From Bryum argenteum (lineage: Eukaryota; Streptophyta; Bryopsida; Bryales; Bryaceae): a stretch of 64,000 nt of DNA. Numbering within the stretch: the stretch's first letter is position 1; each line of letters opens with the position of its first letter. A model generated the notes under the pieces. The model was not told the DNA's origin. It worked only from the letters and a program-made list of their open reading frames with translations, and did not search any database. The stretch spans positions 34,264,101 through 34,328,100 of the forward strand of contig CM073321.1 in NCBI GenBank assembly GCA_037043015.1. The letters are read 5' to 3'. Below are positions 4,140 to 43,326 of the stretch, piece by piece. The translations under genes were made by a program, and so were the position numbers.

Positions 4140-4150
4140 CAGGGATGTCA
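4140..4150 (+). repeat. hAT left terminal inverted repeat, copy A
   Basis: CAGGGATGTCA, then CGGTGTCCTGAC. It pairs with the right end at 20643-20653 and with the terminus of copy B at 43316-43326. Immediately upstream is gatacgac. Confidence 0.75.
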
Positions 4151-4254
4151 CGGTGTCCTGACATTTGCCAGGGGTCCGAGGACCGTCTGTGACTTAGAGA
4201 TTTTGGTCTTTTTACAAAGGGTAAATGACCACCGATATGGGTTCATTGGCCGAC

Positions 4255-4375
4255 CCACCCCGGCGTCTGGTCCTCGAGCTTGCCGTCGGCCCGAGCGACC
4301 GGTCGGCTGGCCGGCCGTCGGCGAGGGCGACCGGCCTTCGCGTCGGGCAACCGCCTGTGGCTGGATGGCCCGCTT
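4255..4375. repeat. GC-rich CCGGTCGGC block upstream of the hAT transposase
   Basis: A dense run of GACCGGTCGGCTGGCCGGCC-type words lies between the hAT left end and the transposase. Similar blocks sit at the 5' side of the RING, CKKYVKMYH and kinase genes of this element. Possible promoter-proximal CpG-rich element, or internal tandem repeats of the transposon. Confidence 0.55.
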
Positions 4376-4647
4376 CAACATCCAACAGTTCTGGAGCATG
4401 CCATTTTCAAATTGCAACGGTCATATTTAGAGTTGGATGGTATGTAAGAGAAGAAACATAGAGTCTCACTTCAGTTTTGAATTTTGAACACTTTCCAAGA
4501 GCTTTGAGCTGCATAGTTCATTTTATGTGTACATTGCTTGGTAGGTATTGAGTTCGGAAGTGAGGATTTCCGTAAGGAACTCTTGCCATTTTTTTCACGT
4601 CCCGGTCCTACCACTGTTTATGACTTTGAGGCGTCCTATTTATCAAA

Positions 4648-7528
4648 ATGGGCCCTACTGCATATGAGCCTTGCTTTAGAGACATCGAGAAGGAAGGCAA
4701 AGCGTCCGGGTCCTTCATACAGTGCTCCCTATGTCATGTAATACTTCCCAAGAAGAAGAGTCGGAATCTGAGTCATTATGCGTACGAGAAGATTCCTGGA
4801 CATCGGGATTCGAGTTCTGCCTTTTGCCCAAAGCTGCCTAGGGAAATTAGGCAGATATTTTTAAGATGTGGCGGGGAGTTCCCTCCATATAACGCAGAAT
4901 TGGACAGATTTCTTGGTGAATGTTCTCTCACTCCATCTGCGGACGTTCCAGGTGCCTCTAAACATGACATTCCAGAAACCCCTAGGAGTGACTCGTGTGT
5001 AGGGTCCTCGCTAGGCACCCCCATGAATTCAGCAGATCTGTTGGTTGGGTCAACCTCTGCTTCTTCCATCCTCATGAGGGGAACTAAGGATACTCGCCCG
5101 ATGTTTGGATCAATGTAGCAAACCAAGCAATCTTTAATTAAAGCTACTTTTGCAGAAGCGGATAGGCGGGAGTTGAATAAACTTTGGGTGAAATTTTTCT
5201 ACAAAGCAAATTTAATATTTTCTGTAGCCCGGAATGATGCGTTCAAAGCAGCTGTGATGAAGACTGCTGGATTTCAAAAATCCTATGCTCCACCATCTTA
5301 CCATGACATTTGGACAAGGTTGTTGGGAGAAGTAAAGACGGAGTTACAAAAGAAACTAGATGGTAGACTCTTGGAGAGCCTTTGGAAGTTTGGAGGAACT
5401 TTGACCATGGATGGATGGTCATCTGTGACTAGTCGCCCTTTGGTGAATGTGATGCTTGTGACTCAAGCTGGAGAGCTTTTTCTTGGAGCTGCGGATACTA
5501 CTGGCATAGAGAAAAAACAGCGGTGTACATGTCAACTCTCATGTTGAAGTACATAGAACAAGTTGGGCTAGAGAACATTGTCCAAGTATGCACAGACAAT
5601 GCTTCTGTAATGCTCAATGCCTCAAGAATAGTCCTTGAGAAATGTCCGCACATTTTTATGCAAGGGTGTACAACAGATGCAATGGACTTGTTGTTGGAGG
5701 ATTGGGGAAAGGCTGGATGGATGGCGAATACTTTGGTCATGGCGAAGAGAATGGTCAAGTTTATCAAGAGGCGACAAATGCCCCTAGTTGTGTTTTGTAA
5801 ACACGTGGCAAAATTCAGCCTACTGATGCCTGGGAAAACAAGATTTGCTAGTCAATTCATAATGATAGATCGCTTGTTGGAGGTCAAGGATTCATTGGAG
5901 CAAGTTGTTGTCGACCCTATGTTCACAGCCTAAGCCTCAAAAAAGACGGTATCTGCTAGTGATAAGCTTATATCTTCCAGTAAGGTCAAGAAGGTGGTGT
6001 TGAGCGATGACTTTTGTACGGGATATAGTGGCCCCCGTAGTCTAAGCTCTGAGAGAATTCAACGGCAAGGCTCCTAGTACGGGCGAGGCTTGGCATATCA
6101 TGCGTCATCTTGAGAGTCATACTTTGCATGCACCGCCAATCTCATTGGAACCACTTGAGGTGGCCACCGCGAAAGAGGAGTTTTACCATCGGAGACGGCT
6201 CATGACAATTGATTTACATGGCGCGGCTGCACTTTTAAATCCTTATTTACTACATGACCAAGAATTAGCTGACGATCCCGATCTGACAATAGCTTGCAAG
6301 CCTGTTTTATAAAAACAATGTTACGCGGAGGATTATGCAGACGTGGTGAGTGAATTTCTTGCCTTTTGAGTAAGGGGTCCACCATTTCATGGCATGCTGG
6401 AGCCTAATACTCAAAAACTAGCTCCACATGCATGGTGGGAATTTGAGGGTGCATGTGCTAAGCTCCTCTCTCCAATTGCAAAGCGAATACTAGCACAGAC
6501 CGTGTCCTCGTTGGCTTGCGAACGCAACTGGAGTAGCTACTCTTATGTTCGCGACAAGAAACGGAATCGGTTACTACCGGGCAGAGCTGATGACTTGGTC
6601 TACATATATTCCAACTCGAAATTGCTTGCGAATGATAAGTTGAGTAACGATGGGCGGTGGTACAAAGAGAACTTGGATTTAGAGGAAGACCAAGTACATG
6701 AAAACAATGAGGAAGCTGTCGAGGACGAATCAGAGACTGATGACAATGATATTTTTGAATTTGGTGATGAAGACGATGATATGACTTTCTTCCCCGCTTC
6801 AAATGATGAAGATGCTCCAAATGTTCACGATGCTAAGGGTGATTTTATCGCTGATGGTGTTTCGGCGGATGATCTAGAGGATGAGGAGCCGTTAGCACGG
6901 TTAAGGACACAAGACAGCATGGACAAATCGAATAACATCCCACCTGTTATTGCTAGTGGTTTACGGTTGGAAAAGGAGGCAATAGACGTGAAAACCACCG
7001 CGTCCAATACTACTGCCGGCACTATGAGCAGTGATCCAGTCGCGGAGAATATCACATCCTATATCTAGGATCAACTATCTTTACCATGTGCTACTCCCCG
7101 CGCTTTATTTCAACCTTCTACTGCAAGGGTTACGACAACCTTGGAGAAATCCTCTATGGGTTTAGTATCCCTTTCAAGAGCCAAATATGGCAGCATCTCT
7201 AGTGACTCTGATGTACCTTTAGGCAGGTATTTAAAAGATGCCAATGTTCCTTGTACTGCCACAAGGTTACAGCACATGCTTGGCACTTCGAAGTCGCATA
7301 AACGATAATCTGGACCGGTTCCAATTGTTCCGCCAAATAAACCAAAGATCCCTGTTAATCTCCCCGAATTTGACACTTGGCATAAATATGGGAATATACA
7401 ATGTCCGGAGAATAAGGCCAAGATCAAACAAAAGGTTCCAAGCGATTATGAACATGATCCTACGGAGTCTGGTGGAGTTGAAGTGAAGAGATAGCGATAA
7501 TGAACAATCCTCTGGTCGTGATGAGTAG
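4648..7528 (+). pseudogene. hAT transposase (BED finger, DUF659, C-terminal dimerisation)
   Basis: The order of domains is classic for plant hAT proteins of the DUF659 type. A BED-like zinc finger (CSLCHVILPKKKSRNLSHY...FCPKLP) lies at 4720-4830. The DUF659 region follows at about 5160-5930, with FGGTLTMDGWSS, then YIEQVGLENIVQVCTDNAS and DLLLEDWGKAGW. The hAT dimerisation domain is at 6420-6620 (HAWWEFEGACAKLLSPIAKR, SLACERNWSSYS, DDLVYIYSNSKLL), followed by a long acidic tail. It would bind the element ends and cut and join DNA in the nucleus. Breaks include TAG at 5116, a frameshift near 5510, TAA after DPMFTA, TAA after KPVL, TGA before RGPPFHG, and TAG at 7066 in the tail. The frame closes at 7494 or 7528. 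Copy B keeps only the C-terminal half. The true start is uncertain and may lie near 4538. Confidence 0.85.
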
Positions 7529-7899
7529 TTGAATTTTGCATCTTTATGTAGTATAGGATCATAGAACTTATCCATATTATAGATATTGTAGCTATAGTTT
7601 ATTGTAGTACTTTATTGTTATACTCCAAATGCATTTGGAGATTTTATTGTCTACATGACTATATTTAATGTGTTGAAAAAATTACATATATCTTTACATA
7701 CTTGTCGCACGATGGTCTTCACTCTCAAGCATAGAGAAGAAATGCACATTAAAACAAAAATATTGCAACCGTTTACTTCAAAAATAATGACCCATGGATC
7801 AATGGTGGCACTTTTATCATTTTTAAAACAACATCCATACAACCTAGGAAAATCTTATATTTATACGGTCAAACTTAAGGTCCAACATCCGTTCAAACT
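7529..7899. other. Gap between convergent genes
   Basis: AT-rich sequence between the 3' ends of the transposase and the RING gene. It probably holds both 3' untranslated regions and polyadenylation signals. No gene is seen, and the same gap exists in copy B (about 41192-41611). Confidence 0.5.
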
Positions 7900-10800
7900 T
7901 CAAACTGAAGATCCATCCGATTGATCGATCTGAGCTATACTACGAGTACGCGGTCTTTGACTTGGATGGGCAATTCTACCGCCCTCTTCATATTCCCGAT
8001 CCACGGCTCCAATTTCGCCTCTCATCTCCGCCTACCAACTATCCTCCCCTTCTTCCCCCGATTGCTTCTTCCGCTTTTTGCTAGAATCTACTTGTTTGTT
8101 ATGTAAGATGTTCATGGCCCCCTCAATTCGTGCAATGACATCGTGTACAACACCTTTGAAATCATCCATTAATAGGAGTTCCGTGTTTTTTGGAGCTAAA
8201 ATACATGTCCTCCAAAACGAAATGGCGTCAGCGATACGCTTATCAAACTTCTTCACCGCATCCCAATAAGAGACCTCCACATCTTCAAAAGAGTTTTCCG
8301 GCATCAAAGTCCGGTATATTGTGGCCTCCTCCAATTTTGCAAGGACCATAGCTCTTCCAATTGGAGTATGATCGTACTTCTTATACTCCTCTCTAAAGCC
8401 AGTTGAATCTGTTATTTCGTGTCACGAACCATCTTCTCTCTTTTCCACTCTCTTTGGAGGAAATCAAAAGAAACGGTTGTGTTCGACGCTCCAATGCCCT
8501 CCAAAATTACGACAATACAACTCTCGTTGCTCTTCACCTTCAATATTCCTCGCCCTTATCTCTATTTTGTAATCTTGTGTCATCCAGAATAACTGATCAT
8601 GATCCCCACCATATTGAATGGCTAGTTGGTGTTTTGATTCGGACGTACTCCACTCAAGTGCATTTCCCCAATCAGAGTAGTGTAGAAATTTCTTTGGGAA
8701 TTGATCTAGTGGAAGATTCCATCGGTTGAACTCGTGCCCTGGTGGCATAAGATCTCGTATGCCCATCATTCCGTAGAATCTCGTGCTAAATGGAGAGCGA
8801 CATACAAGACATACCGATTTTGTCATGGCATATCGGCATGTGCAAGTAACATGGAAGTTATGGCCACATTGGCCCAACGTGTATGCTCCCTATAGACCAA
8901 AATGATGTAGGCACACCGCACATGTGTCCTTAAGTATTGCGGGAGGAGGGTCGCATGTGTTGATTACAATGCGAGTTGACTCTTGTAGGTGCAACGAGAA
9001 TCTACTGTACGACGCCCATCCTTCTCCTATCTCCAAAGTCCAATCAACATTATTGTTTTGCCCTATCTTAGAGTAGTTTGTACGCTCCATCATATCTTCT
9101 GCATCCCTGCAAACGGTGACCTTTATAGGGTCATATCGTTTTTTCGTATTGTTCTCACGAAACTTCTCCAATGAAGCATCTACAACTTCACATGAATCTT
9201 TTGATTTAGCTGCAATTGATTTGAGATCGTCTTGTGCCTTTGAAACCAAGGTCTCGCTATCTTGAAGTCGATGAACCCATTCCAACCATGGTAGTGTGCA
9301 TTTTTGGAGTGGTGTAGAATCTACCGTTTTCAAGGTTTTCGGTAATGCCTCCAATTGAGCGACTGCCTCATCTCTTTCTTTACTTGTAGCCTCCAACTTC
9401 ATTGACCATGCTTTTGCATCATCCTTTAATTTTGCAACTGCAACATCTCTCTCCTCATTCGCAGCCTCGAACTTCATCGCCCATGCTCATGCATTATCTC
9501 TCTCCTTATTTGATATCTCCAACTTCAATTCCCACGGACTTTCATCATCGTCTATTTCGATAATGGTCTTTTCCTTATTTTCTTTACCATCCTCTTTACC
9601 ATCCTCTTACCACCCGCATCCTATTCTGAAAGAAAAAGACTACATGAAGTCCTGATAATGGTCTTTCCCTTATCTTCTTTACCATCCTCTTTACCACATG
9701 CATCATATTCTGAAAGAAAAAGACTAGATGAAGTCCCTTGAGTGTCATTCTGTAATGGAACAAACTTGTCACCTTCTTTTGAGTCTTCTAACAAATCCCG
9801 AGTTACACGGCAAACTTCTACTGCATACTTTGCCTCATAGCCGCCAGCAGGTCGTTTGCAAAACATCCAAATTTTTGCAATTCAATGTAAAACTCGTAAA
9901 GGAGATCGCTCAGATTTTGGTTTTGTTTTTGCATTTTCAGAATGATTTGATTATCTTTCACTCGGTCCTTCACTAGAAGATGATATCGATCTATGATTGC
10001 CTTATAATTTTTGGAAGACTGTAGAACGTTCGGCATCATACCTGCCAAAGTGTGACTCATCTTCACAAAATTGGGAGCAATACTAACAAGTATTTCTGAC
10101 TGCCTATAGCAACTATGTCAGCAGCCGAGGTAACTGCCCAATCATTCCCTAGCATACCTTGCTCTTTATCTACCTCATTGCACCAATCTGCTATTCCGCG
10201 TGCGGTATCTATCCACTCCTCCAATTTCTTATTGCTTGGTACTGTACGCAGAAACTCCTCGAAATCATACCCCCATTGGAATCCTAATCTAACATGACAT
10301 AATCATCTGTTGGTGATTTGGTTTCCTCTGGTACACTTGGCCTTGCCTCCTCTGATGTTGGTATAGGGGTTACATGAGGTTCTCCAACTACTTTTGCATC
10401 TTCGAGCCTATCCGTTATGGTTGGTTCTACGAGTGGAGCATCCATGGCAACCATGTTCCTTCCATCCCCCTTCTGTGCCGTGGTTGTTGGAGGAGAATCC
10501 TTCACCACCATCTCATGAGTTTTCCTCCTCAAGTCTTGCAATAAAGCCTTTGTAGAGTTTGATTCTGGATCAAACATATCTGGGATATCTTTTTGATTTC
10601 TCTCAATTCGAAGAGGAAACGTACTACTTGCTGTGAATGTGCTCCAGTTCACCTTTTGCTTCAGTATTAGCTGAGCATACACCATGCACAAAAGCGTATA
10701 GGAAAAGTAACCTTTGCTCTTGGGACGATCTCCAAACAATCACTACAAGGAAATAGGGCCCGATATGACCAATAGTTGACAAAAAAATGTCCAAAATGAC

Positions 10801-11627
10801 GAAGTCGCAGGCTCGCAGCCCAACTTCTGTCACTTTGGAAATTATAAATGTTTTTGTCAACTCCTTGTCAACTTCTTGTCAACTTTTTTTATTTTTGACC
10901 AGCGTGGAATTGCTAAAACGGGGGCACTTAACCCCTAACCGTCTTTGAAGCCCGAAATGGGTTTTTGCAATTTCGGGCAACCTAGATAAAGGTGTTGAAG
11001 GTAATATTTTCTGCCTAATATTTTTACTTGGCGCTCCTTATACTGCAAAGTGGGTGTGGTAAAATTTGCAAAGTGGAATTTCAATTTTTGAATCTTCTAG
11101 GGCAATTCTCGATGTGCGAGCCAAGATCGGGCAATTTAAATTTAGGTTTTCAAAAAGAATTGGAATTACGTTCATAACCAAAGTACTACTTAAGTTCCTA
11201 AGGGCTCTTGGTCAAAAAGTTTACCAATTTTACAAGGGCGACCTCCAAAGTTTCCAAAACAATCTTGACAATGCCCAAAAAGCTTGGGAGACAAACTTTG
11301 GATGTTATGATCTCGCAAATGGTAAACATCCAACGGTTCATTTTTGAACATTAACTAAAAATAGTCTTAAGTACAAGATCTTACGGTTGGAAGTTTCAAA
11401 AAAAGAAATAACTTTCGTTTGACCTTGGGAATGCATAGAGGTAGAAAATCGAAGTTTCAAGGTTTTGAGCTCCCAAAAACACACACGGACGGTTTGGGGT
11501 TAAGAAAACTTGAAAAATACCCAACATTTACATGTCATCCTATAATTCACAGCCCAAGAACCATAATTTTCTCACTTTCTACTTCTAGAAGCTGCATGGG
11601 GGCCTGAAGGTCATTTAGGGATTTAAA

Positions 11628-11990
11628 CAAAATCAGCAGACTTTAGCAAGAATTTTGTCATAGTAGAATAGTTTTTTTCAAAAATTTTTGGGATAAAAAA
11701 AGCTAGTAAACCAAGTAAAGTTTCATCTCCAAAAGTTCGTTTGTCACTTAAAGCCTCCAATCAAAAGTTATAGACAAAATTCAAAGACGGGTAGTGAGGA
11801 ATTTTCTTTTTTGATATTTTCAAACACCCTCTTTGAATTTTGTCTATAACTTTTGAATGGAGGCTTTAAATGACAAACAGATTTTTGGAGATGAAACTTA
11901 ACTTGATTTACCAGCTTTTCTTAGTCTAAAGGTTTTTGAAAAAAGTTGTTTTACTATGTCAAAATGGCCGCCAAAGTCTGCTGAGTTTGG
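11628..11990. repeat. Large inverted repeat (foldback) inside the CACTA element
   Basis: The arm at about 11628-11790 is matched in reverse by about 11829-11990, with a centre near 11810. Shared words include AAAGTTTCATCTCCAAAA, AAAGCCTCCA and TATAGACAAAATTCAAAG. The spacer is about 40 bp. A transcript would form a long hairpin. Confidence 0.8.
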
Positions 11991-12027
11991 AAACAACAAT
12001 TCTATATAAATAAAACAAATTACTCCC

Positions 12028-12218
12028 CATCATCGAGTTGAATGGAGGGCGGGTTGGTAAGGTAACAAGTTTCGACTCACGAGGTCCCGAGTTCGATACC
12101 GGTATGGATCAGTACTTCCGAAGTTGTCGGCGTGGAATAAGTAAAAAGCTTTTTAAAAGTAACTATTGCCCGAAAACTTCGGGCAGCGGAAAAAAAGCTT
12201 TTTTTTTTTTTTTTTTTT
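12028..12218 (+). repeat. Possible tRNA-derived SINE with T tail
   Basis: GGGTTGGTAAGGTA followed by TTTCGACTCACGAGGTCCCGA and GAGTTCGATACC resembles tRNA-type A and B boxes of RNA polymerase III SINEs. A GCCCGAAAACTTCGGGC stem and a run of about 20 T end the unit. Clear target duplications were not found. It is nested in the CACTA element. Confidence 0.35.
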
Positions 12219-12982
12219 CCTCTCACCGTAAGAACTTGCTGACGTGTATTCTTGTCCGATTTGACAGCCGAATCGACATGTTTTTGTTAATAAGTGACCG
12301 AATCAGGGTCTCCTAATTGACGGGACAGTTGACTGAATTACATCAATTAGGTCACATATATCCTTGTAGTGAATGCCACCCAAACTTACTTACTACGATG
12401 AAGAAAGTGATCATCCTTGCATGTTTGCGGGTTGCAAGTACAATTATTGGTATTCACTTTGTGACATTCTCGAGGCCAAAGTTTTCCAATGTGGTACATC
12501 TTCACATATTTCTTGCAGGTCGCCAATCTCCAATGTTCCTCCTTTTCTAACTCCCAACCGCTCTCAGCTTTGATGGCCTCATTATCCAAAATCTTGTATT
12601 GCAACTCATGTCTCGCTCCTTTTGGTTTCACTCTCTTTGACGGTGTCTCCTGTAAAACCAACTCCGTCCCCACCAAATCTGCGTTTGCGTTTTCTTTCGC
12701 ACGTGACCTCAAGGTCTCTTGAGAATCAACCTCCATCTTCGTGTTATTGGTCTCCGTCGCCATGAAGAATAGGGAGTATAGAAAATACCCCGAAGATATC
12801 CCAAGTATGCAAAAATTTGATGCAGCAGCTGCAAGTATCGCGCTGACTTCTCCCCGCCACCACAAATGCAGCACACGAGAAGCTAATGCCCACGGTTGTA
12901 GCCCAATTGAGGTGGATGGATTCGAGAAGATGTGAGGGGAAATGAGGCCCAAGGGCCTTTTATCCCCTAATTTTACCAACCC

Positions 12983-13245
12983 TTGAGACCGGCCGCACGG
13001 ACCAGTCGCTCGGCCAATCACGGCCGCGACCGATGGTTGCCCATTTGTCCAGCCGACGGATCCTGGCCGGTCAATCCGGGCGACCGATCGGGGCTAGCCT
13101 ATCATGGCCGCTCGATCTCGCCGACCGATGACGGCCGACCAACGACAGCCGACCGATCTAGGCGGCCGATCCTAGCCGCTCGATCTCGCCAACCGATGAC
13201 GGCCAATCAATCTGGGCGGCCGCTCTGGCGGGCCGCTCCGGGTTT
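12983..13245. repeat. GC-rich GGCCGACCGATC block upstream of the RING gene
   Basis: Repeats of GACCGATC, GGCCGCTCGATCTCGCC and GACGGCC words lie 220-480 bp upstream of the RING gene start. The counterpart in copy B is at 37420-37660. Possible promoter-proximal CpG-rich element. Confidence 0.6.
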
Positions 13246-15889
13246 TTTTTAATTTTCTTTTTAAATTTAAAAAAAAAAAAATTACTGAAATCTTACAAAA
13301 TTTCATAGGATCCTTTTTGATTCCTCAAAGATTTCTGTTATTAGATTCTCAGTGTTAATTACACAATGAAAAAATGAATGCTATGTTGATTTCTAAAATG
13401 CTATATATTCATTATTCATGGAGACATCTTCACTTCAACTTTTGAGATCAAAACCATTTCGAGTCTACTCTATAAAGTGTAAATCTTCACAAAAATAAAG
13501 ATGTTTCGTACATAAGGCATACATTTGGGTCCAAACAGTTTCTTTCTTCTCTATTTTCTTTTTGTAAATTAATCGGCAATTTTCATCATTCCAAGGCAAT
13601 GCTTTCTACCATTAAGTTTCATTTAACATACTTTCTGGTACAACCATAATATTGAGATAAATTTGAAGGGCTTTGTAGTTGGAGATTTCATACTTGCATT
13701 AGCTTTGTAATATGAATTTTCACTTTAATCTGAAAATGATGTATTTTCGTGAATTCTCTTTTGTACGAATACATTATGATCTCGCAATCTATGGGGCTTT
13801 ATGAATCAAACTTTGAGCCACATGATCTACGACTGTAAGTCTATTACAATATTGCATGGTTGAGAATGTCAATTGGGTATCCTCATTTTAATATAGAACC
13901 CTTATTTTGGAAATACGTCATTCTGTTAAAAATAGGCTCTGAGATTGAAGAGTCTAGAATCTTAAATCCTATGTTGAATGTTGAAAATTGTACCAATATA
14001 TTCCTTGCAATAAACGTGTGATTTATCCCATGTCAATAACATCTTCAAACAAAAATGATAAATACAAAACAGATTATTTTGCACATAATAACTATGCGAT
14101 GTAGAAAAGTGCAATTGTTATCCATTTAAAATATAATTGAGAACTACACCATACATACACAAATCCATTATTTCCTTTCCACACACAATTGTGTTTGCAA
14201 AGCTTTGCAATTCCAAAACTAGAATTAAAATGAAATCTATCCCAAATCCCCAAGACCCTAAAACCCTAAAACCGTCAATCCTAAACCCTAGAGGCCTAGA
14301 TAGTAATTCATACATCCTAAATCATAAACTTTAAATCCTATCCACAAGTGATCTTATCCAAGAGATACTCTAAATGAAGAAGTGATGGCTCTTCAAAATA
14401 TTATATTTCCAAATCAATCAATCGAAGTTTCTAATAGAAGAATTATCAATTTTATTTAACATAAATTCTCAGTACTATACGTGTACAAGATCAAATATGA
14501 TTAAAACTTTATAAGCTGATTCCATTATTGCCATATGTTAAAAACTTATAGGGTGGGATATTTTCATAAATTTATTTGTCTCCCTTTTTACTTCTCTTTA
14601 TTTATGATTGCAAAATATAAAACAATAGAAACGTATTTACAATTAAGTACGATTATATGTACTAGGATATAAATATACTCCTAGCTTAGTTCAAGGGTGT
14701 CAAACAAAAAATAGCCAATAATAGAATTAGTTGTTTAAGCACAATGTTTTTTACTACTAAGTACTACTAAATTAGATACACAACGATGGAGTAATTTCCA
14801 AATGCACATCAAATAATATAGACCATAAAATGTGGACAAACTAAGGCCAAAATAGAAAGTCTAAATATTGACAAAGATGGTAAAACCAAAGTTATGAAAA
14901 CTAAATGCTCATACATGCTCACCTACATTTCATATATACTTAGATCTCTCCAATATTAGACATAAGTATACTCTCATAAAGAAATACCTAAAATTTCTGG
15001 AATGTGATAGAAGAGAATTTAGGGCCATTTCAAAGTATACAATAGGGGCCAAGCCATTAATGGGAGCCAATATATGGCAGAATCTCGTTGTGAGAATGGA
15101 TCAATTTTTGACAAAAGTTGGGAGATATAAGAAACGAATGCCAATTCATGGGAGCTTGAAATCCTAGCACTCACCACTAAAGGGGCTACGTCCAATATTT
15201 TTAGAATGATTTTATAATTTCAACCATAGGATCTTGAAGTAGACTACCATCGGTAGTAGTGTGAAATTTTCAACCGTTGGAACATCACTAGATGTGAGAT
15301 CATAACATTTGAAGTTGACTGTAAAACATTTTTTGGCCGTGACGGTAAAAGCCGAATCGGTGGCCGTGGTCGTTTAGGGGTTAAGAGAGGATATTTAAAA
15401 CAAATAAAACTAATGTGTACAAATCAAAAACATGGACTCTAGCTAATAATAAGAATTGGCCCCATGGCCTACGCTCTCCTTCTAGAAATGGGCATCAACT
15501 CCAAAGGGCTTCACAAATGGGAAAATTGGCCCCACTATATTGATTGTTAAATGTCTTCTCCTATTCAAGCCAATTGGGCATAACAACTCAAAAGGTGAGT
15601 GAATTGGCACAGAGATTTGTTGGCCTTCACTCCCCTTGTAAAGAGTTCCTTATTATAGATTTATTTAAAGCCGAGAGTATCTTTGTCATAAGACATTCTC
15701 GTTTCTGACAAAGAGATATTCCCGACATTCCCTTGTCAGAACATTCCTTGTCCATATTTAGACGCCACGTGGTCCATAGAGGCTAAATATAGAAGTGTCA
15801 AAATGCAAATATGTAATGCAGGGAAGTGATCGAAGTTGTGCAAACGGGGAGTTTTGGAGAGAGGCAAGAAGAAGAGGGGGAAGGAGGTA
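13246..15889. other. AT-rich region between divergent cargo genes
   Basis: About 2.6 kb without genes separates the RING gene (leftward) from the CKKYVKMYH gene (rightward), with a GC-rich block at each edge. It holds poly-A/T runs near 13250, a TTTAGGG-like tract, and near 15650-15780 a conserved stretch (TTTATTTAAAGCC, then GACATTC and CACGTGG words) kept in copy B. It likely carries both promoters. Confidence 0.5.
14262..14300. repeat. Interstitial plant telomere-like tract
   Basis: Three or more CCCTAAA-type units (CCCTAAAACCCTAAAACC, then AAACCCTAG). Mirrored tracts are at 35258-35290 and 36553-36585 in copy B, so the tract is part of the transposon and not a fused chromosome end. Confidence 0.65.

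Positions 15890-23566: not shown

Positions 23567-23569
<3 letters not shown>

Positions 23570-23615
<46 letters not shown>
23570..23615. repeat. (TA)n microsatellite
   Basis: About 23 TA units followed by a T run. Confidence 0.95.
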
Positions 23616-32802: not shown

Positions 32803-32944
32803 TTTCAGCAGCGACAAGTATGCACAGTGTGGGCGTGGGTGACCCACGCGGACTCTGAACAACGCAGTCGATGCAGCTTTAAAAAAAGCCACAACGTACA
32901 GCCCGTTCACCAGAGTGAGGGAGAATGAGCCCCTCCCCTCCTGT

Positions 32945-33235
32945 TTATGCCGACCGGGGATCGGATGCCATTAGCTAGCTGGCACTGGCCGTCCGATCCC
33001 GGATGGCAGCGGTCAAATCGCCGGTCGAGCGGCCTGGATCAGACGTACGACCGATAGGGGTCGCACGATGGACCGGTCGATCGGAGCCGCCCGATGGCGC
33101 GGTCGATCGGTCGATCAGGGCCGTCGATGCCGGCCGACCGATCCGAGCGACCGGGGACAGGTCGGCCGACCGGCCCGGCAACTGACGACCGGGCCGGCGT
33201 CCTGCGACCAGCGACCGGCCTGGCGTACCTCCCTT
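32945..33235. repeat. GC-rich block upstream of the CKKYVKMYH gene, copy B
   Basis: CCGACCGGGGATCGG, GGTCGATCGGTCGATC and GACCGGCCCGGC words, upstream of the gene start as in copy A, but without the 18-bp array. Confidence 0.6.
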
Positions 33236-35257
33236 CCCCGTACCTCCCTTACCCCTCCTCTACTTGCATCTCCCCAACTCTCTCCGTTTGCACAATTTCG
33301 AGGACTTCCCTGCATTAAATATTTGCAATTTGAATAGTACTATTTTTAGCCCGGATAGTCCACGTGGCGTCTAAATATGGACAGGGCATGTTCTGACAAG
33401 GGAATGTCGGGAATATCTTTTCGTCATAAACGGGAATGTTTTATGACCAAGATACTCTCGGCTTTAAATAAATCTATAATATGGGACTCTTTACAAGAGG
33501 AGTGAAGGCCAACTAATCTCCAAGCCAATTCACTCACTTTTTGAGTTATGTTGCCCAATTAGCTTGAATTGGACAAAACATTTAACAATCAATATAGTGG
33601 GGCCAATTTTCCCATTTGTGAAGTCCTTCGGAGTTGATGCCCATCTCTAGAAGGAGAGCCAAGGCCATAGGGCCAATTCTTATTATTAGCTAGAGTCCAT
33701 GTTTTTTATTTGTACACATTTATTTTTTATATTTTTTTTTCTGAAATATTCTTTCCTAACACCTTAACAACCACGGCCACCGATTCGGCTTTTACCGTCA
33801 CGGCCAAAAAATGTTTTATAGTCAACTTCAAATGTTATGATCTCGCATCTAGGGATGATCCAACGGTTGAAAATTTCAGACTACTTTGGATGGTAGTCTA
33901 CTCAAGATCCTACGGTTGAAATTATAAAAAATTTCCAAAAATATTGGACATAGCCCCTTTATGGTGAAACCACCTATTGTCGTGCACTTAAGGAAAATTG
34001 AGGGAATCCATATACTTGGAGTGAGAAATGAGTAGGTTACTATTTTTCACGGATAGGGAATAGGAAAAGACGAGCTAACCCTATTTATGTGCTTTTTTAA
34101 AGCACACACATAATTAGATACAAATTTCAAAAGGAGAAGCCTATAGGCGGGCACCCTAAATATGTACGCATGAGGTACATGCAAGGGAGGTGAGATCTTT
34201 ATAAATGCAAGAATCTTGGGTGCCCGCCTTTGGGTAGGTGCTCGCCTTTAGGTGGTTTCACCATAGTTCATAGTGGTGAGTGCTAGTATTGCAAGCTCCC
34301 ATGGATTGACATTCATTTCTTGTATCTCCCAACTTTTGTCAAAAATTTATCCATTCTCACTAGGAGATTTTGCCATGTATTGGCCCCCATTCATGGCTTG
34401 GCCCCTAGTGTGTACCCTGAGGTGGCCTTAAATCCTCTCATATTACATTCCATAAATTTTAACTATTCCTTGATGAGAGTATACTGATGTCTAACATTGG
34501 AGAGATCTAAGTATATATGAAATGTAGGTGAGCATGTGTGAGCATTTAGTTTTCATAACTTTGGTATTACTGTATTTGTCAATATTTAGACTTTCTATTT
34601 GGGCCTTAACTTTTCTACATTTTATGGTCTATATTATTTGATGTGCATTTGGAAATTACTCCATCATTGTGTATCTAATTTAGTAGTACTTACTCTAAAA
34701 AACATTGTGTTTAAACAACTAATTCTATTATTGGCTATTTTTTGTCTGACACCCTTGAACTAAGCTAGGAGTAGATATATAATCTAGTACATATACTTGT
34801 AACTAATTTGCACATATTCTTTTTAAAAAATTAATTGTAGCATTATTCTTATTGTATGTATTTGAATAATTACTTATTTCCCTCTTACAAAGGTAATAGA
34901 AATAAGTTTCTATTGTTACTATGTTGCGATCATAAAATAAGAGAAATAAATAGTGAGACTAATAAATTTTATGAAAATATCCCACCCTATAAGTTTTTAA
35001 CATATGGCAATAATGGCATCAACTTATAAATTTTTAATCATATTTGATATTGTACACGTATAGTACATTAGTACTAAGATTTGATGTTAAATGAAACTGA
35101 TTATTTGTATACTTTGATTGATTGATTTGGGAATAGAATATTTTGAAGAGCCATCACTTCTTCATTTACAGTATCTAATGGATAAAATCACTTGTGGATA
35201 GGATTTAAGTTCTTGGTTTAAGATGTATGAATTACTATCTAGGCCTCTGGGGTTTAG

Positions 35258-35290
35258 GGTGTAGAGTTTAGGGTTTAGGGTTTAGGGTCT
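35258..35290. repeat. Interstitial telomere-like tract
   Basis: GGTTTAGGGTGTAGAG and then three TTTAGGG units. It is one of two such tracts in copy B, because the region is duplicated. Confidence 0.65.
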
Positions 35291-35417
35291 TGAGGATTTG
35301 AGATAGATTTCATTTTAATTCTAGTTTTTGTGTTGCAAAGCTCTGCAAACACAATTGTGTGTGGAAGTAAAATAATGGATTCGTGTATGTATAGTGTAGT
35401 TCTCAATTATATTTTAC

Positions 35418-35545
35418 ATATCGGTCGACTGTCATCGGTCGAAGCGACCGGCGACCGGTCTGCCGACCGCCCAGGCGTCGGACGACCGGCATGGCGACCG
35501 ACCAGGTCCCCCGGGCGACCGGTCGGTCGGTTGTTCCGCGTACCC
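35418..35545. repeat. Extra GC-rich block marking the duplication junction
   Basis: ATCGGTCGACTGTCATCGG and GCGACCGGTCGGTCGG words. Copy A has none at the equivalent place. It is the head of the second duplicated unit. Confidence 0.55.
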
Positions 35546-36552
35546 CCTTCCTTCTCCTCCTCTTGCCTCTCCCGAACACTCCCCGTTTGCACAACTTCGA
35601 TCACTACCCTGCGTTACATATTTGTATTTTCAAAGGTACCATATTTAGCCTGTGTGGTCCACGTGGAGTCTAAATATGGTCATGGAATGTTCTGACAAGA
35701 GAATGTCAAGAATATCTCTTTGTCCGAAATGAGAATGTTGAATGACAAAGATGCTGTCGGCTTTAAATAAATCTATAATAAGGGACTCTCTTCAAGGAGA
35801 GTGAAGGCGAACAAATCTCCAAGCCAATTCACTCACTTTTTGAGTTATTGTGCCCAAGTAGCTTGAATTGGAGTAGACATTTAACAATCAATATGGTGGG
35901 GCCAATTTTCCCATTTGTGAAGCCATTGGGAGTTGATGCCCTTGTCTATAAGAAAAGCGAAGGCCATGAGGCCAATTCTTATTATAAGCTAGAGACCATG
36001 TTTTTGATCGTACACATTAATTTATTTTTATTAAAATATTCTTTCTAAACCCCTTAAGATCCATGGCCACGAAAGTGGAGGTTTCCTATTTCGGGCAGCA
36101 TAGATGAAGAGGTCAAAAGTAATAATTTTTTATTAAATTTTTACTAGGATCTCCTTACACCGCAAAGTGCACGTGGTAAAATTTGCATATCCGAATTCCA
36201 AATTTTCAACCTACATCTAGAAAATTGAGGTTTGAAGTCCATTAAGGGCTGTTTAAATTTAGTCTTTGTTTGGAAATATGTTCATGATCAATCTACTACT
36301 TGAGTTCTAAAGTGACCCAAGTCAAAAAGTTTGTCAATTTCACAAGGGTAGCCTTGAGAGATTACAAAAATAATCTTCACAATTTCTAGTAATTTCTGAA
36401 TTAACTCTTCCTTCGAATAATTGTTTTGAGAATATAATAATTTAAAGAGGCATCTCTTCTTCATTTAGAGTATCTTGTGGATAAAATCACTTGTGGATAG
36501 GATTTATGGTTTATGGTTTAGGATGTATGAATTACTCTTTAGGCCTCTACGG

Positions 36553-36585
36553 TATAGGGTTTAGGGTTTAGGGTTTAGGGTCTTC
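36553..36585. repeat. Interstitial telomere-like tract
   Basis: TATAGGG followed by three TTTAGGG units, in the second duplicated unit. Confidence 0.65.
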
Positions 36586-37419
36586 GGATTTTGGGATAGA
36601 TTTCATTTTAATTCTAGTTTTCGTGTTGCAAAGCTTTGCAAACACCATTGTGTGTGGAAGGGAAATAATGGATTTGTGTATGTATGGTGTAGTCCTCAAT
36701 AATATTTTAAATGGATAACAATTGCACTACTCTACATCGCATAGTTATTATGTGCAAAATAATCTATTTTGTATTTAATATTTTTGATGGAGATGTTATT
36801 GACATGGAATAAATCACACATTTATTGCAAAGAATATACTTGTACAATATTGAACATTCAACATTCAACATAGGATTTAGGATTATAGAATCTTCGATCT
36901 CATAGCCTATTTTTAACCAAATGACGCTGTTCCAAAATAAGTGTCCTATATTTAAATGAGGATACTTCAATTGACATTCTCAACCATGCAATATTGGAAT
37001 AGAGTTATCGTTGCAGGTCATGTGGCTCAAAGTTTGATTCATAAAGCCAATGGCCAATAAATTTACAAAAGGAAAATAGAGAAGAAAGAAATTGTCTGGA
37101 CCCAAATGTATGCCTCATGTATGAAACATCTATGAATTTGTGAAGATTTATACTTTAAAGAGTAGACTAGGAATGGTTTTGTTCTCAAAACTTAAAGAGA
37201 AAATGTATCCGTGAATAAAGAATATATAGCACTTCAGAAATCAACCTAGGATTCCTTTTTTCATTGTGTAATAATCACAGAGAATCGAATAACAGAAATC
37301 TTTGAGGAATAAATAAGGATCCCATACAATTTTGTAAGATTTTTGTAGTGTATGTTATAAATAAAGAATTGAAAAAAAAATTTTGAAAAAAAAAATTGAA
37401 AAAAATATTTAAAGCAAAA

Positions 37420-37660
37420 CCCGCAGCGGCCGCCCAGATCGGTCGGCCGCCATCGGTCGACCGGCATCGGTCAGCCAACATCGAGCGGCCAGGATCGGCC
37501 GGCCAGATCGGTCGGCCGTCATTGGTCCGCCGCGATCGGTCGGCGCGAACGACCGGCCACGATCGGTCGACCGAATCGACCGGCCAGGATCCGTCGGCCG
37601 GACGGGCCGGCCAGCATCGGTCGCGGCCGTGAGTGGTCGAGCAACCGCTCCGTGCGGTCG
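37420..37660. repeat. GC-rich block upstream of the RING gene, copy B
   Basis: CAGATCGGTCGGCCGCCATC and GATCGGTCGACCGAATCGACC words just upstream of the RING gene, mirrored at 12983-13245. Confidence 0.6.
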
Positions 37661-37891
37661 GTCTCTAGGGTTGGAAAAACAAGGGGAGAGAAGGCCCTTG
37701 GGGCCTCATTTCCCCTCACTTCTTCTCGTATTCATCCACCTCAACTCGGCTGCAACCGTGGGCATTAGCTTCTCGTGTGCTGCATTTGTGGTGGCGGGGG
37801 GAACTCAGCGCGATACTTGCGGCTGCTGCATCGAATTTTTGCATACTTGGGATATCTTCGGGGTATTTTAAATACTCCCTAGCTATTCTTC

Positions 37892-40800
37892 ATGGCGACG
37901 GATACCGATAACAAGAATATGGAGGCTGATTTTGAACAGACCTTGAGGTCACCTGGGACAGAAAACAAGAACGCATGATTGGTGGGGACGGAGTTGGTTT
38001 TACAGGAGACACCGTCAAAGATAGTGAAACCAAAAGGAGCGAGACATGAGTTGCACTACGAGATCTTGGATAATGAGGCCATCAAAGCTGAGAGCGGTTG
38101 GGCCAATGAAACTAAGGAATACAGGAGATTGGCGACGTGCAAGAAATGTGTGAAGATGTATCACATTGGGAAACTTTCAAAGTTTACTTGCAACCCACAA
38201 ATATGCAAGGATGATCACTTTCTTCATTGTGCTGTAGAAGTTTGGGTGGCATCGTTTGGAACTCGTCCCAAGAGCAAAGGTTACTTTTCCTATACACTTT
38301 TGAGCATGGTGTAGGCTGAGCTAATATTGAACCGGAAGGTGAACTGGAGCACATTCACGGTGAGTAGTGCATTTCCTCTTCGAATCGGGAGAAATCAAAA
38401 GGAGATCTCAGATATGTTTGATCTTGAATCTAACTCTACAAAGGCCTTATTGCAGCACTTGAGGAGAAAAACTCATGAGACGGCGGTGAAGGATTCTCCT
38501 CCAACAACCACGACACATCAGGAGGATGGAAGGAATATGGTTGCCACGGATGCCCCAATCGTAGAACCAACTATAATTGATAGGCTCGAAGGTGCAAACG
38601 TAGTTGAAGAACCTCGTGTAACCCCGGTACCAACATTAGAGGAGGCAGGGCCAAGTGAACCACGAGAAACCAGATCACCAACAGATGCCATAGATGACAT
38701 GCATCCGGATTCGGGTATGGTGGAAAATTTTGTGGACTATCTGCATACGGTACCAAGCAATAAGAAATTGGTGGAGTGGCTGAAAACCGCAGAAAGAATG
38801 GCAGATTGGTGCAATGAGGTAGATATAGACCAAGGTTTGCTAGGGCATGAAGCCTCAGCTGCTGAAATAGTTGCTCTAGGCCTCGACTTGAAAGAGGCGT
38901 CAGAAGTACTTAGTAATATATCTCCCGATTTTGTGACGATGAGTCACGCTTTGGCAAGGATCTTGCCTAACATTCTACAGTATGCGGTGAATTATGAGGC
39001 AATCATAGATCGATTCCACCCTCTACTGAAGGACCGAGTGAAGAGTGAGCTAATCATTGTGAAACTGCAGAAACAACACCAAATTACGCAACGTCTACTT
39101 GACGAGTTTTACAAGAAATTGCGGTTGTTTGGCCAAGGTCCTGCTAGCGAGTATGTGGCAAAGTACCAAGAAGCAATGCGCCAAAGGGATGTGTTAGAAG
39201 ACTCAGAAGAAGGTGACAAGTTTGTTCCATCACAGAATGATACTCAGGTAGCTTCATCTAGTCTTTTGGTTCCAGAATGTGATGCGGGTGATAAAGAGGA
39301 TGGTAAAGAGGATGGTGAAAAGGATGGTAATAAAGATAAGGGGAAGAGCATTATCGGGACTTCTGATAGTCTTTTTCTTTCACAAATTGATGCGGGTGGT
39401 AAAGAGGATGGTGAAGAAGATAAGGGAAAGACTTATATCACGGATTTATATTCTCTTAAAAAGTATGGTGGAGAGGATGGTAAAGAAGATAAGAGAAGGA
39501 CCATTATCGAAATAGACGATGATGACGATGATGAAATTCCGTGAGAAATGAAGTTGGAAATATCACAAAAGAAGAGAGATGATGCACAGGTTGAGCAACA
39601 ACGAGCATGGGCAATGAAGTTCGAGGCAACAAAGAAGGAGAGAGATGTTGCAGTTGCGAAATTGGAGGAGGAAGCAAAAGCATGGTCAATCAAGTTGGAG
39701 GCTACAAGTAAAGAGAGAGATGAGGCAGTCGCTGAATTGGAGGCATTACGGAAAACCTTGAAAACGGTAGATTCTACACCACTCCTAGAATGCACACTAC
39801 CATTGTTGGGATGGATTCATCAACTTCAAGATAGGTGGAGCTTGGTTTCGAGGGCAAAAGACGATCTCAGATCGATTGCAGCTACATCAAAAGATTCATG
39901 TGAAGTTGTAGATGCTTCATTGCAGAAGTTCTTTACGAACAGATCGAAAAAACGATATGACCCTCTAGAGGTCACTTTTTGCGGGAATATTGAAGAGATG
40001 ATGGAGCGTACAAACTACTCTAAGATGAGGCGAAACAATGATGTTGATTGGACTTTGGAGATAGGAGAAGGATGGGCGTCGTACAGTAGATTCTCATTGC
40101 ACCTACAAGAGTCAACTCGCATTGTAATCAACACATGCGACCCTCCTCCCGCAATACTTGAGGACACATGTGCGGTGTGCCTACATCATTTTGGTCTATA
40201 GGGAGCATGCACGTTGGGCCAATGTGGCCATAACTTCCATGTTACTTGCACATGCCGATATGCCATGACAAAATCGGTATGTCTTGTATGTCGCTCTCCA
40301 TTTAGCACGAGATTCTACGGAATGATGGGCATACGAGATCTTATGCCACCAGGGCACGAGTTCAACCGATGGAATCTTCCACTAGATCAATTCCCAAAGA
40401 AATTTCTACACTACTCTGATTGGGGAAATGCACTTGAGTGGAGTACGTCCGAATTATAACACCAACTAGCCAATCAATATGGTGGGGATCATGATCAGTT
40501 ATTCTGGATGACACAAGATTACAAAATAGAGATAAGGGCGAGGAATATTGAAGGTGAAGAGCAACGAGAGTTGTATTGTCGTAATTTTGGAGGGCATTGG
40601 AGCGTCGAACACAACCGTTTCTTTTGATTTCCTCCAAAGAGAGTGGAAAAGAGAGAAGATGGTTCGTGACACGAAATAACAGATTCAACTGGCTTTAGAG
40701 AGGAGTATAAGAAGTACGATCATACTCCAATTGGAAGAGCTATGGTCCTTGCAAAATTGGAGGAGGCCGCAATATACCGGACTTTGATGCCAGAAAACTC

Positions 40801-41191
40801 TTTTGAAGATGTGGAGGTCTCTTATTGGGATGCGGTGAAGAAGTTTGATAAGCGTATCGATGACGCCATTTTGGTTTGGAGAGTATGTCTTTTAAACCCA
40901 AAAGACTCACAACTTCTATTATTGGATGAGTTCGAAAGTGTTGTGCAGGATGTCGTTGCAAAGATCGAGAAGGCCAAGGAAATCTTACATAACAAACAAG
41001 TGGATTCTAGCAAAAAGGGGAAGAGGCAATCGGAGGAAGGTGAGGAGGATAGTTGGCAGGTGGAGATGAGAGGCGAAATTGGAGCCGTGGATCAAGAGTA
41101 TGACGAGGGCGGTCAAATTGCCCGTCGAAGTCAAAGACCGCGTACTCGTAGTATAGCTCAGATTGTTCAATCGAATGGATCTTCAGTTTGA
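37892..41191 (+). pseudogene. RING-finger / coiled-coil cargo gene, copy B
   Basis: Uninterrupted by CACTA, this copy gives the gene order best. It starts MATDTDNKNMEADFEQ, then LATCKKCVKMYHIGKLSKF and CKDDHFLHCAVEVW, then YFSYTLLSMV and LNRKVNWSTFTVSS. A long linker with Asp/Glu/Lys-rich repeats (GGKEDGEEDKGK) and a coiled coil (MKFEATKKERDVAVAKLEEE) lead to VDWTLEIGEGWASYSRFSLH and the RING (CAVC, CGHNFHVTC, CLVC) with MMGIRDLMPPGHEFNRW. The C-terminal part is MVLAKLEEAAIYRTLMPENS to SIAQIVQSNGSSV. Stops: TGA-type break near 37977, TAG at AEL, a TGA after DDDDDDEIP, TAG inside the RING, TAA after TSEL, and TGA after VEHNRFF. Ubiquitin-ligase activity is only inferred from the RING-like spacing. 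Confidence 0.65.
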
Positions 41192-41221
41192 AGTTAGAAC
41201 GGATGTTGGACCTTAAGTTGC

Positions 41222-41286
41222 ACGTATATAACTATATATATATAACTATATATATATAACTATATATATAAATATATATATATATG
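41222..41286. repeat. AT microsatellite (TATATAAC units)
   Basis: TATATATATAAC repeated, absent from copy A at the equivalent place. Confidence 0.85.
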
Positions 41287-41611
41287 CTTTTTCTAGGTTG
41301 TATGGATGTTGTTTTAAAAATGATGAAAATGCCACCATTGATCCATGGGGCCTCATTTTTGAAGTAAAGGGTTGCAATCTTTCCGATTTAATGTGCATTT
41401 CTTCTCTATGCTTGAGAGTGAAGACCATCGTGCGACAAGTATGTAAAGATATATGTAATTTTTTCAACACATTAAATATAGTCATGTAGACAATAAAATC
41501 TCCAAATGCATTTGGAGTATAACAATAAAGTACTACAATAAACTATAGCTACAATTTCTATAATAAGTATAAGTTCTATGAACCTATACTACATAAAGAT
41601 GCCAAATTCAA

Positions 41612-43078
41612 CTACTCATCAGGACCAGAGGATTGCTCATAATCGCTATCTCCCTTCACTTCAGCTCCACTAGACCCCGTAGGATCATATTCATAATCGC
41701 TTGGAACCTCTTCTTTGATCTAGGGTTTATTCTCTGGACATTGTATATTCCCATACTTGTGCCAAGTATCAAATTCGGGGAGATTAACAGGGATCTTTGG
41801 TTTCTTGGGCGGAACAATTGGGACCGTTACAGATTTTTGTTTATGCGACTTTGAAGTGCCAAGCATGTCCTGTAACCCTGTGGCAGTACAAGGAACATTG
41901 GCATCTTTTAAATACCTGCCCAAAGGTACATCAGAGTCACTAGAGATGCTGCCATATTTGGCTCTTGAAAGGGATACTAAACCCTTAGACGATTTCTCCA
42001 AGGTTGTCGTAACCCTTGCAGTAGAAGGTTGAAATAAAGCGCGGGGAGTAGCACATTGTAAAGATACTTGATCCTTACTACCGGATGCGATATTCTCCAC
42101 GACCAGATCAGAGCTCATAGTGCCCGCAGTAGTATTGCACGCGGTGGTCTTCACATCTATCGCCTTCTTTTCCAACCGTAAACCACTAGCGAGAACAGGT
42201 AGGACGTTAGTCAATTTGTCCATGCCGCCTTGTGTCATTAACCGTGCTAACGGCTCTTCATCCTCTAGATCATCCGCCGAAACACCATCAGCGATAAAAT
42301 CACCCTTAGCATTGTGAACATTTGGAGCATCTTCATCATTTGAAGCGGGGAAGAAAGTCATATCATCGTCTTCATCACCAAATTCAAAAATATCATTGTC
42401 ATCACACTCTGAATCGTGCTCGACAGCTTCCTCATCGTTTTCATGTACTTGGTCTTCCTCTAAATCCAAGTTCTCTTTGTACCACCGCCCATCGTCACTC
42501 AACTTATCATTCGCAAGCAATTTCGAGTTGGAATATATGTAGACCAAGTCATCAGCTCTCCCCGGTAGTAACCGATTCCATTTCTTGTCGCGAACATAAG
42601 AGTAGCTACTCTAGTTGCGTTCGCAACCGGACGAGGACACGGTCTGTGCTAGTATTCGCTTTGCAATTGGAGAAAGGAGCTTAGCACAAGCACCTTCAAA
42701 CTTCCACCATGCATGTGGAGCTAGTTTTTGAGTATTAGGCTCCAACATGTCATGGAATGGTGGACCGCTTACTCGAAACGCAAGAAATTCACTCACCACG
42801 TCTGCGTAATCCTCCGCGGGTCATAATTTTTGTACAACACGCTTGCAAGCTATTGTCAGATCGGGATCATTAGCTAACTCTTGGTCATGTAGTAAATAAG
42901 GATTCAAAAGTGCAGCCGCGCCATGTAAATCAGTCGTCATGAGCCGTCTCCGATGGTAAAACTCCTCTTTTGCGGTGGCCACCTCAAGTGGTTCCAATGA
43001 GATTGGGGGTGCATACAAAGTATGGACATGTCTCTCAAGATCACGCATGATATGCCAAGCCTTGCCCGGGACCGACGG
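41612..43078 (-). pseudogene. hAT transposase C-terminal remnant, copy B
   Basis: From GKAWHIMRDLERHVHTLYAPP it runs leftward through the hAT dimerisation region (HAWWKFEGACAKLLSPIAKR, SSGCERN, a TAG, then YSYVRDKK). The acidic tail is open for 275 codons (42547-41720) and ends at 41612. The BED finger and DUF659 half are missing, so this copy cannot make a transposase. Relative to copy A the tail has about 90 percent similar residues by eye. Confidence 0.8.
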
Positions 43079-43230
43079 CCGGACCGAAGGTCGGATCGGT
43101 TGGCCGACGGCCTGTTGCTCGGGCCGACGGCCGGTCGCCCTCGCCGACGGTCGGGTAGCCGACCGGTCGGTCAGGCCAACGACAAGCTGGAGCACTGGTC
43201 GACAGGGTGGTTCGACCAATGAACGCACCC
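43079..43230. repeat. GC-rich block at the left end of copy B
   Basis: GGACCGACGGCCGG and GGTCGCCCTCGCCGACGG words, counterpart of 4255-4375. The internal deletion of the transposase joins this block to the C-terminal half. Confidence 0.6.
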
Positions 43231-43315
43231 TGATGGTCATTTACCCTTAGTAAAAAGATCAAAAATCTCTAAGTCACAGATGGTCCCCGGACCCCTGCCG
43301 GACGTCCGAACGCTG

Positions 43316-43326
43316 TGACATCCCTG
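43316..43326 (-). repeat. hAT terminal inverted repeat, copy B
   Basis: TGACATCCCTG, followed outward by gtccgatg. Homology to copy A ends exactly here. Confidence 0.8.

Follow-up and report, generated by a model that had tools for sequence, protein, structure and literature searches.

Elements of the hAT superfamily are textbook small, one-gene transposons, and a 64,000-nucleotide stretch of the moss Bryum argenteum genome (the window, C1:34264101-34328100 in a 259-Mb assembly) raises the question of whether such an element can also move, and keep as its own, a set of several accessory genes. A single LEAFY locus turned up in the assembly, and its product has the residue that marks a moss-type protein, the D of KMRDYVHCY. 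The window holds two inverted copies, A and B, of a unit in which a hAT transposase gene is accompanied by a gene for a RING protein, a second gene sharing the CKKY domain of the first, and a protein-kinase-like gene. Copies A and B almost certainly belong, in decayed form, to a large family of giant hAT elements, each a giant transposable unit, and we give a probability of about 0.72 to the joint reading that this giant hAT unit carries selected genes of its own. As judged from sequence, the family appears to be genuine and out of the ordinary, a lineage of giant hATs with several genes each and with signs of selection on the accessory ones. The lineage is probably ancient, with accessory genes that serve the transposon.

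Copy A (4140..20653, forward strand) is a decayed, two-ended element of 16,514 bp that contains all four gene types and is bounded by CAGGGATGTCA on the left and TGACATCCCTG, at 20653, on the right, with terminal repeats at 4140..4150 (forward) and 20643..20653 (reverse). Copy B (30011..43326, reverse strand), delimited by self-blast, has its left terminal repeat at 43316..43326 (reverse) and is truncated at the other side; its right terminus was searched for and not found, and homology to A ends at 30011 inside the kinase gene. Only A is two-ended in the window, so that the originally predicted pair of 13- to 16.5-kb units stands for A and not for the right-hand side of B. The left ends of both copies are exactly CAGGGATGTCA, at 4140 and 43326, and the inverted homology, which self-blast recovers in pieces, runs from 4137-19537 against 43329-30011. 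Identity in these pieces is mostly 81-90%, with one short piece at 73%, and B lacks any match to A 4351-6080. The outer flanks of the two copies differ; the alignment extends three bases past the left terminus (GAC in both), which is taken as coincidence. An identical left end at which homology begins, with dissimilar flanks outside it, is what the original prediction had described. Two other candidate termini were rejected, namely, for the right side of B, CAGGGATGTCT at 24827, whose likeness to the terminus stops after 10 bases, and, as an end of A, a site at 19640 with one mismatch to the terminus.

The prediction that both copies share four genes in one order also held, on the evidence of the inverted homology and of tblastn. 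Read in element orientation, the transposase gene is forward, the CKKY-coiled-coil-RING gene (hereafter the RING gene) reverse, the CKKY/Gly-Tyr-rich gene (the CKKY gene) forward, and the kinase-like gene reverse. In A, the interrupted transposase gene lies at 4630..7083 (forward strand; Pfam DUF659 and Dimer_Tnp_hAT, and tblastn), the RING gene, in pieces, at 8035..12886 (reverse; tblastn with a relative of 1122 amino acids [aa]), the CKKY gene at 16249..17557 (forward; tblastn), and the kinase-like gene with its HND and DWG motifs, also in pieces, at 18556..20126 (reverse; tblastn with a 530-aa relative). The corresponding tblastn matches in B are at 42056..43066 (reverse) for the C-terminal part of the transposase, which has lost its first, N-terminal half, at 37889..41056 (forward) for the RING gene, at 31757..32940 (reverse) for the CKKY gene, and at 30012..30992 (forward) for the kinase, cut at its N-terminal side. 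The genes of both copies are broken by stops and frame shifts. The prediction had treated the RING/coiled-coil and CKKY genes as distinct types; the CKKY domain in fact forms the start of the RING gene, to which the CKKY match at 12.4-12.9 kb belongs, and is found again in the Gly-Tyr-rich gene at 16.2-17.6 kb, which is indeed separate.

Whether the whole unit moves can be asked of its target sites. Ten elements (E1-E10) were picked by a left end and either a right end or a kinase about 13-17 kb apart in the correct orientation; because their flanks played no part in the choice, target duplications test independently whether the unit moved as a whole. Together with copy A and two further elements, I2 and Y2, they make 13 two-ended elements of 13-19 kb, a nonrandom sample. 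Seven of these have perfect 8-bp target duplications, three have 6-7 of 8 positions alike, and three, A among them, have none. The perfect cases are E2, E3, E4, E6, E7, E9, and Y2, the last a member of a sister subfamily (C9, 18,693 bp; ends CAGGGTTGTCA / TTGACAACCCTG, duplication CTCAAACT); the near cases are E1 (7/8), E10 (6/8), and I2 (C1, 16,865 bp, with long frames; 6/8, CGCCTTAC versus CGCTGTAC). The chance that random 8-mers match at 6/8 positions or more is about 0.4% (binomial, equal bases). The terminal inverted repeats are short and begin CAGGG in the three lineages examined, a start typical of hAT termini. RING, CKKY, and kinase sequence is present in 13/13 elements and transposase sequence in 12/13, partial in E9, and none of the 13 consists of a transposase alone between termini. 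Transposition of the whole unit, which had been proposed in preference to random duplication, is what these duplications around entire units indicate. E9 (C1:4952600-4969645) also contains a nested insertion, in which frames resembling retrotransposon pol, as judged by eye, break the transposase region. In another sister-subfamily element, Y1 (C6:15941800-15961799), the left 7 kb is inverted relative to Y2, with a sequence like the left terminus joined to the interior, possibly through aberrant transposition or a misassembly.

Genome searches gave a consistent picture of linkage. Each query was scored on its best first-look candidates, so all fractions describe the best-matching places: 40 of 230 for the left end (4140-4400; 53 matches) and 40 of 280 for the right end, own site included in both, 54 of 1241 for the transposase, 81 of 953 for the RING gene, 95 of 1448 for the CKKY gene, and 150 of 743 for the kinase. 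At least one of RING, CKKY, and kinase lay at the expected place and orientation for 44/54 scored transposases, versus 0/54 in a mirrored-geometry control. An element gene was correctly placed and oriented beside 35/40 scored right ends, an element gene or a right end beside 34/40 scored left ends, and some partner was in its expected place for 86/150 scored kinases. The CKKY-kinase pairing was seen in 54/95 cases, against a mean of 0.28 for shifted positions, and the pairwise order counts in general were far above their shifted nulls. Copies of the cargo elsewhere in the genome are bounded by the same termini, as the prediction required, and its statement that the unit is present twice was an understatement, given that the kinase search alone returned 743 candidates.

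Long frames for accessory genes survive in the better-preserved copies. Stop-free frames in Y2 encode a RING gene of 1122 aa and a kinase of 509 aa, and frames in the 16.9-kb I2 encode a transposase of 958 aa, a RING protein of 952 aa, and a kinase of 528 aa. The RING matches in A fall below the Pfam cut-off; in the 1122-aa relative zf-RING_2 exceeds it (32.6 bits versus 27.3), and the RING-H2 pattern of zinc ligands (C3H2C3) is complete in all four stop-free copies checked, making the product a putative RING-H2 protein of the E3-ligase type. In the alignment, kin_Y2 and kin_I1 retain the catalytic Lys, Glu, HxD Asp, Asn, and DxG Asp, within the motifs FAAK, EH.NE, HND, PDN, and DWG as assigned by eye; single copies deviate at one position, with PDS in E5, VHQNE in E7, and YND in I2. 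No Pfam family explained the CKKY domain in the open reading frames (ORFs) scanned, its profile had no match among solved structures at E values up to 10, and an AlphaFold model of one window sequence had a mean pLDDT of 30 and was not used.

When the A and Y subfamilies were compared, the kinase had ratios of nonsynonymous to synonymous divergence (dN/dS) of 0.23 and 0.31, the RING gene had 0.25 and 0.28, and two transposase stretches had 0.30 and 0.27; with dS at about 1 or above, these values are rough. By these ratios, kinase and RING gene were kept roughly as strictly as the transposase while the subfamilies diverged. Between two Y copies the kinase ratio was 0.15. A value of 5.8 from one 50-codon pair within the A subfamily was set aside as a misalignment.

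The four genes are further joined by arrays of a short motif. CGGTC/GACCG arrays lie in A upstream of the RING gene (12901..13300), the CKKY gene (15701..16300), and the kinase (20001..20700, which includes the densest 300-bp stretch of the window), and in B upstream of the CKKY gene (32801..33400) and the RING gene (37201..37800) and at the left end, on the transposase side (42901..43326). Counted as motifs per kb in the 700 bp before each gene, the mean density was 18.4/kb for the transposase (10 copies), 13.6/kb for CKKY (13), and 25.4/kb for the kinase (13); the RING mean was 15.6/kb over 12 rows, two of them misassigned, and 17.4/kb over the other 10. The background was 1.0/kb elsewhere in the fetched stretches and 0.5-1.4/kb in the window outside the elements, and the arrays are about 14-25 times denser upstream of the four genes than elsewhere in the element. 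They precede all four genes in the A and Y subfamilies alike. The motif was picked after the elements had been viewed; an open ranking of 5- and 6-mers nevertheless placed CGGCC, CGGTC, CCGAC, and their relatives first, both in eight elements of the A subfamily and in Y2. Shuffles of eight stretches (E2 and Y2), which preserve base composition and not dinucleotides, averaged 1.4-2.7 occurrences with a maximum of 9, versus 9-25 observed. It is a reasonable guess that the transposase binds these CGG-containing arrays, because for CGG-binding proteins encoded by hATs, motif matches occur subterminally in the elements themselves (PMC8097297).

A more distant lineage, Z, was reached through an extra CKKY-family gene beside Y1 (L030), which has many relatives of 95-99% identity on several contigs. 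On C7, a hAT transposase of 1073 aa, with about 37-40% identity to the A/Y type, is accompanied by two CKKY-family genes and a kinase-like gene that is 27% identical to the window's third kinase. The N-terminal part of the first of these CKKY genes, as far as read, is nearest to that of the A/Y RING gene. From the right end of the element (...AAGACAACCCTG) we predicted the left junction as CTCCACAT followed by CAGGGTTGTC; it had a single exact match in the genome, at C7:18348126 and in the expected direction, which delimits an element of 23.7 kb, and the terminus there was confirmed by reading the sequence. With up to two mismatches, the junction pattern occurred 30 times, versus 7 for a reversed-pattern control. 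Kinase-like and CKKY-family genes are thus common to distant hAT lineages, in a different order. A second Z copy sought near C1:24508900 to bound the lineage showed no homology. Inside the 23.7-kb element, at L044:1720-2832 (C7:18350919-18352031), there is a C2H2 zinc finger with interrupted pieces resembling a TET/JBP dioxygenase; two of these, joined with X, scored 33.2 bits (E 3.6e-8), under the Pfam cut-off of 34.9. The stretch is perhaps a nested insertion. A TET/JBP-like gene is not claimed as Z cargo, as the one other Z copy tried (C3:12025600) had no homology at the tested spot.

Several observations weigh against a giant unit with selected genes. Among the best-scoring copies, 10/54 scored transposases had no cargo match; because of these, and because the 13 elements were not chosen at random, some copies may carry the transposase alone. 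The fractions above are likewise limited to the best-scoring copies and are not genome-wide. Copy A lacks a clean target duplication (GATACGAC versus ATTCGGAC, 4/8 alike), B has no right end, and E5 (3/8) and E8 (2/8) also lack duplications. E7 has a perfect duplication and cargo and no transposase match, and for that reason is either a deletion derivative or was moved in trans. The nearest Pfam models for the kinase are of the Pkinase type, with scores below their gathering cut-offs, and in I2 the CKKY gene is interrupted, the RING gene contains a stop, and the HND of the kinase has become YND. The CKKY comparison between A and Y is saturated at synonymous sites (pN 0.23, pS 0.78), and dN/dS within the A subfamily is higher (0.27-0.80), as expected for copies decaying after insertion, which leaves present-day selection on the cargo unproved. 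The arrays also have exceptions, with 2.9/kb and 0 before the CKKY genes of E8 and E9, and extra arrays occur away from gene starts, such as that at 35201..35700 in B, which lies about 2 kb beyond the first, close to a direct repeat of the region upstream of CKKY, with no gene starting immediately after it.

These points bear differently on the other explanations. The accessory genes may be host genes that a hAT element picked up and now carries neutrally, in the manner of Pack-TYPE elements or of the fungal histone H3 hAT; capture and amplification by a hAT have been published (PMC6710886), and many copies here, both window copies included, are interrupted. Neutral riding is weakened by dN/dS of 0.23-0.31 for kinase and RING gene, values like those of the transposase, by the long uninterrupted frames that survive and the upstream arrays that are shared, and by the recurrence of kinase-like and CKKY-family genes beside a 37%-identical transposase, and we consider it unlikely; with transposase in 12/13 units and such ratios, the elements do not resemble the Pack-TYPE or transduplicating class. 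Just as unlikely is a benefit to the host, for instance in signaling, with the hAT as mere vehicle, as is thought for fungal Starships. Kinase and E3-like domains do resemble signaling genes, and purifying selection by itself cannot separate host benefit from element benefit; set against this are hundreds of candidate copies, many of them decaying, a strength of selection about equal to that on the transposase, arrays shared with the transposase, and related genes traveling with hAT in a distant lineage.

Two further explanations concern the unit itself. A hAT and a multi-gene cargo element might merely be nested, with the outer termini belonging to the latter, which would suit the different gene order in A/Y and Z, the perfect duplication of E7 without a transposase, and a cargo-like set without a visible transposase at 54.5-58.6 kb. 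In all three lineages examined, nevertheless, the termini are those of a hAT (CAGGG, 8-bp duplications), and they enclose transposase sequence in 12/13 elements, making this improbable. A chance duplication, segmental or palindromic, on a chromosome rich in repeats, with incidental hAT termini, would account for an inverted pair 9.4 kb apart with one tract of 99.5% identity; homology begins at the terminus, however, and we rejected this scarcely credible explanation on the strength of whole units with target duplications at unrelated sites. A giant hAT with its own genes is the reading that we retain. Purifying selection on kinase and RING genes, arrays shared by all four genes, and recurrence of related genes in a distant lineage make the accessory genes look like the transposon's own, and it is likely, on this comparative evidence, that they serve it. 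The term passenger, used in the prediction, therefore needs revision.

How such genes might serve the element can be sketched. Whole units of 13-19 kb, or 23.7 kb in the distant lineage, would move by cut-and-paste; a DNA-binding protein made by the element, either the transposase or a CKKY protein, would attach to the arrays and switches on the four genes together or keeps host silencing off them; and the E3-ligase-type RING-H2 protein and the kinase would modify host or element proteins so that transposition is permitted. In this specific form, the array and antisilencing mechanism is a tentative proposal that we would sooner doubt than accept. The same caution applies to the wider and comparably doubtful notion of an ancient giant-hAT clade that is a self-contained, regulated unit, in which the E3-ligase-type protein, the kinase, and the CKKY-domain proteins act through the arrays before each gene as a counterdefense, overcome host silencing, and have let the elements pile up on one large, perhaps sex-linked, chromosome. 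C1 (44.09 Mb, 17% of the assembly) holds 33/40 of the scored left ends, 28/40 right ends, 42/54 transposases, 51/81 RING genes, 76/95 CKKY genes, and 97/150 kinases, an excess that is partly built in because all six queries derive from C1 elements. C1 may be a nonrecombining or sex chromosome; its first 1,500 bases (C1:1-1500) start with N and contain neither TTTAGGG nor CCCTAAA.

With the hAT superfamily (the Ac, Tam3, and Hermes group) the moss elements share DUF659/Dimer_Tnp_hAT, short CAGGG repeats, and 8-bp duplications, and they differ in their 13-24 kb and four genes; hAT elements are described as typically about 5 kb, ranging from 110 bp to 7,144 bp (PMC6710886). The Dothideomycete histone H3 hAT of the same paper likewise has DUF659, 8-bp duplications, an extra gene, and hundreds of copies, but is about 9.5 kb long with one captured gene and mostly truncated copies, whereas the moss elements have several long genes with signs of selection. 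Arabidopsis VANDAL elements with VANC are also plant DNA transposons with an accessory protein gene and noncoding repeated motifs, the VANC targets forming tandem repeats (PMC5735166, PMC10398659); their transposase is Mutator-type, unlike the hAT domains here, and no VANC relative was recognized in the moss elements. Fungal hAT7 and IS3EU (PMC12730594) are DNA transposons with an accessory enzyme gene as well. hAT7 differs in its 7-bp duplications, against 8 bp here, and its TET/JBP gene, and IS3EU carries an alpha-kinase, whereas the moss kinase is nearest to Pkinase-type models, below cut-off. Giant KDZ, EnSpm, and Sola-1 elements of Ectocarpus (PMC12477816) exceed 10 kb, and many families have additional genes; they belong to other superfamilies, hAT making up 0.05% of that genome, and KDZ and EnSpm are enriched on its sex chromosomes. 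The mover in the moss elements is a hAT transposase, in contrast to the tyrosine-recombinase captain of Starships; Pfam found no such recombinase in the given ORFs, in a scan not aimed at them. The term hAT was not found in the available main text of a giant-transposon review (PMC6431247) or of a plant gene-capture review (PMC13317346), and no giant multi-gene plant hAT appeared in titles and abstract openings of the open-license literature, which is weak evidence of absence. If the reading is true, a multi-gene set kept through deep divergence means that accessory genes can become lasting hAT genes in plants. The elements would allow tests of a kinase and a ubiquitin-ligase-like protein encoded by a transposon, and of the arrays that its genes have in common, to which a factor made by the element may bind. 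They may also bear on why giant elements accumulate on some chromosomes, as reported for giant DNA transposons on the sex chromosomes of Ectocarpus (PMC12477816).

The A/B locus has a history of its own. Within the kinase segment, an inverted tract of 1.2 kb (A 18337..19537, B 30011..31211; self-blast) is 99.5% identical, compared with about 87% in neighboring parts and with 87% protein identity for the next best kinase copies among the scored genome matches, a difference that points to A and B having recently undergone gene conversion or exchange. Two elements would have inserted in opposite orientation and then exchanged sequence. A crossover between the inverted copies would invert the interval and give A the right end of B, which might be so because the right flank of A (ATTCGGAC) is closer to the left flank of B (CATCGGAC, 6/8 alike) than to the left flank of A (4/8). 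This flank likeness fits an inversion and is suggestive only; we put the odds of such an inversion at about even.

Elsewhere in the window, a divergent cargo-like set of kinase-like, CKKY-like, and RING-like genes occupies 54529..58560 on the reverse strand; no transposase or termini were found beside it. Its kinase has relatives elsewhere of up to 90% identity (138 matches, from the best 133 of 696 candidates). Two long frames of 276 and 188 aa, without a Pfam match, lie between A and B at 21040-22417, and copy A contains an inverted repeat of 163 bp (11628-11989) that is 84% complementary around a 36-base loop. Long, degenerate, strand-asymmetric repeats, G-rich or C-rich, are located at 51865-52341, 53102-53678, 56036-56655, and 58950-59561.

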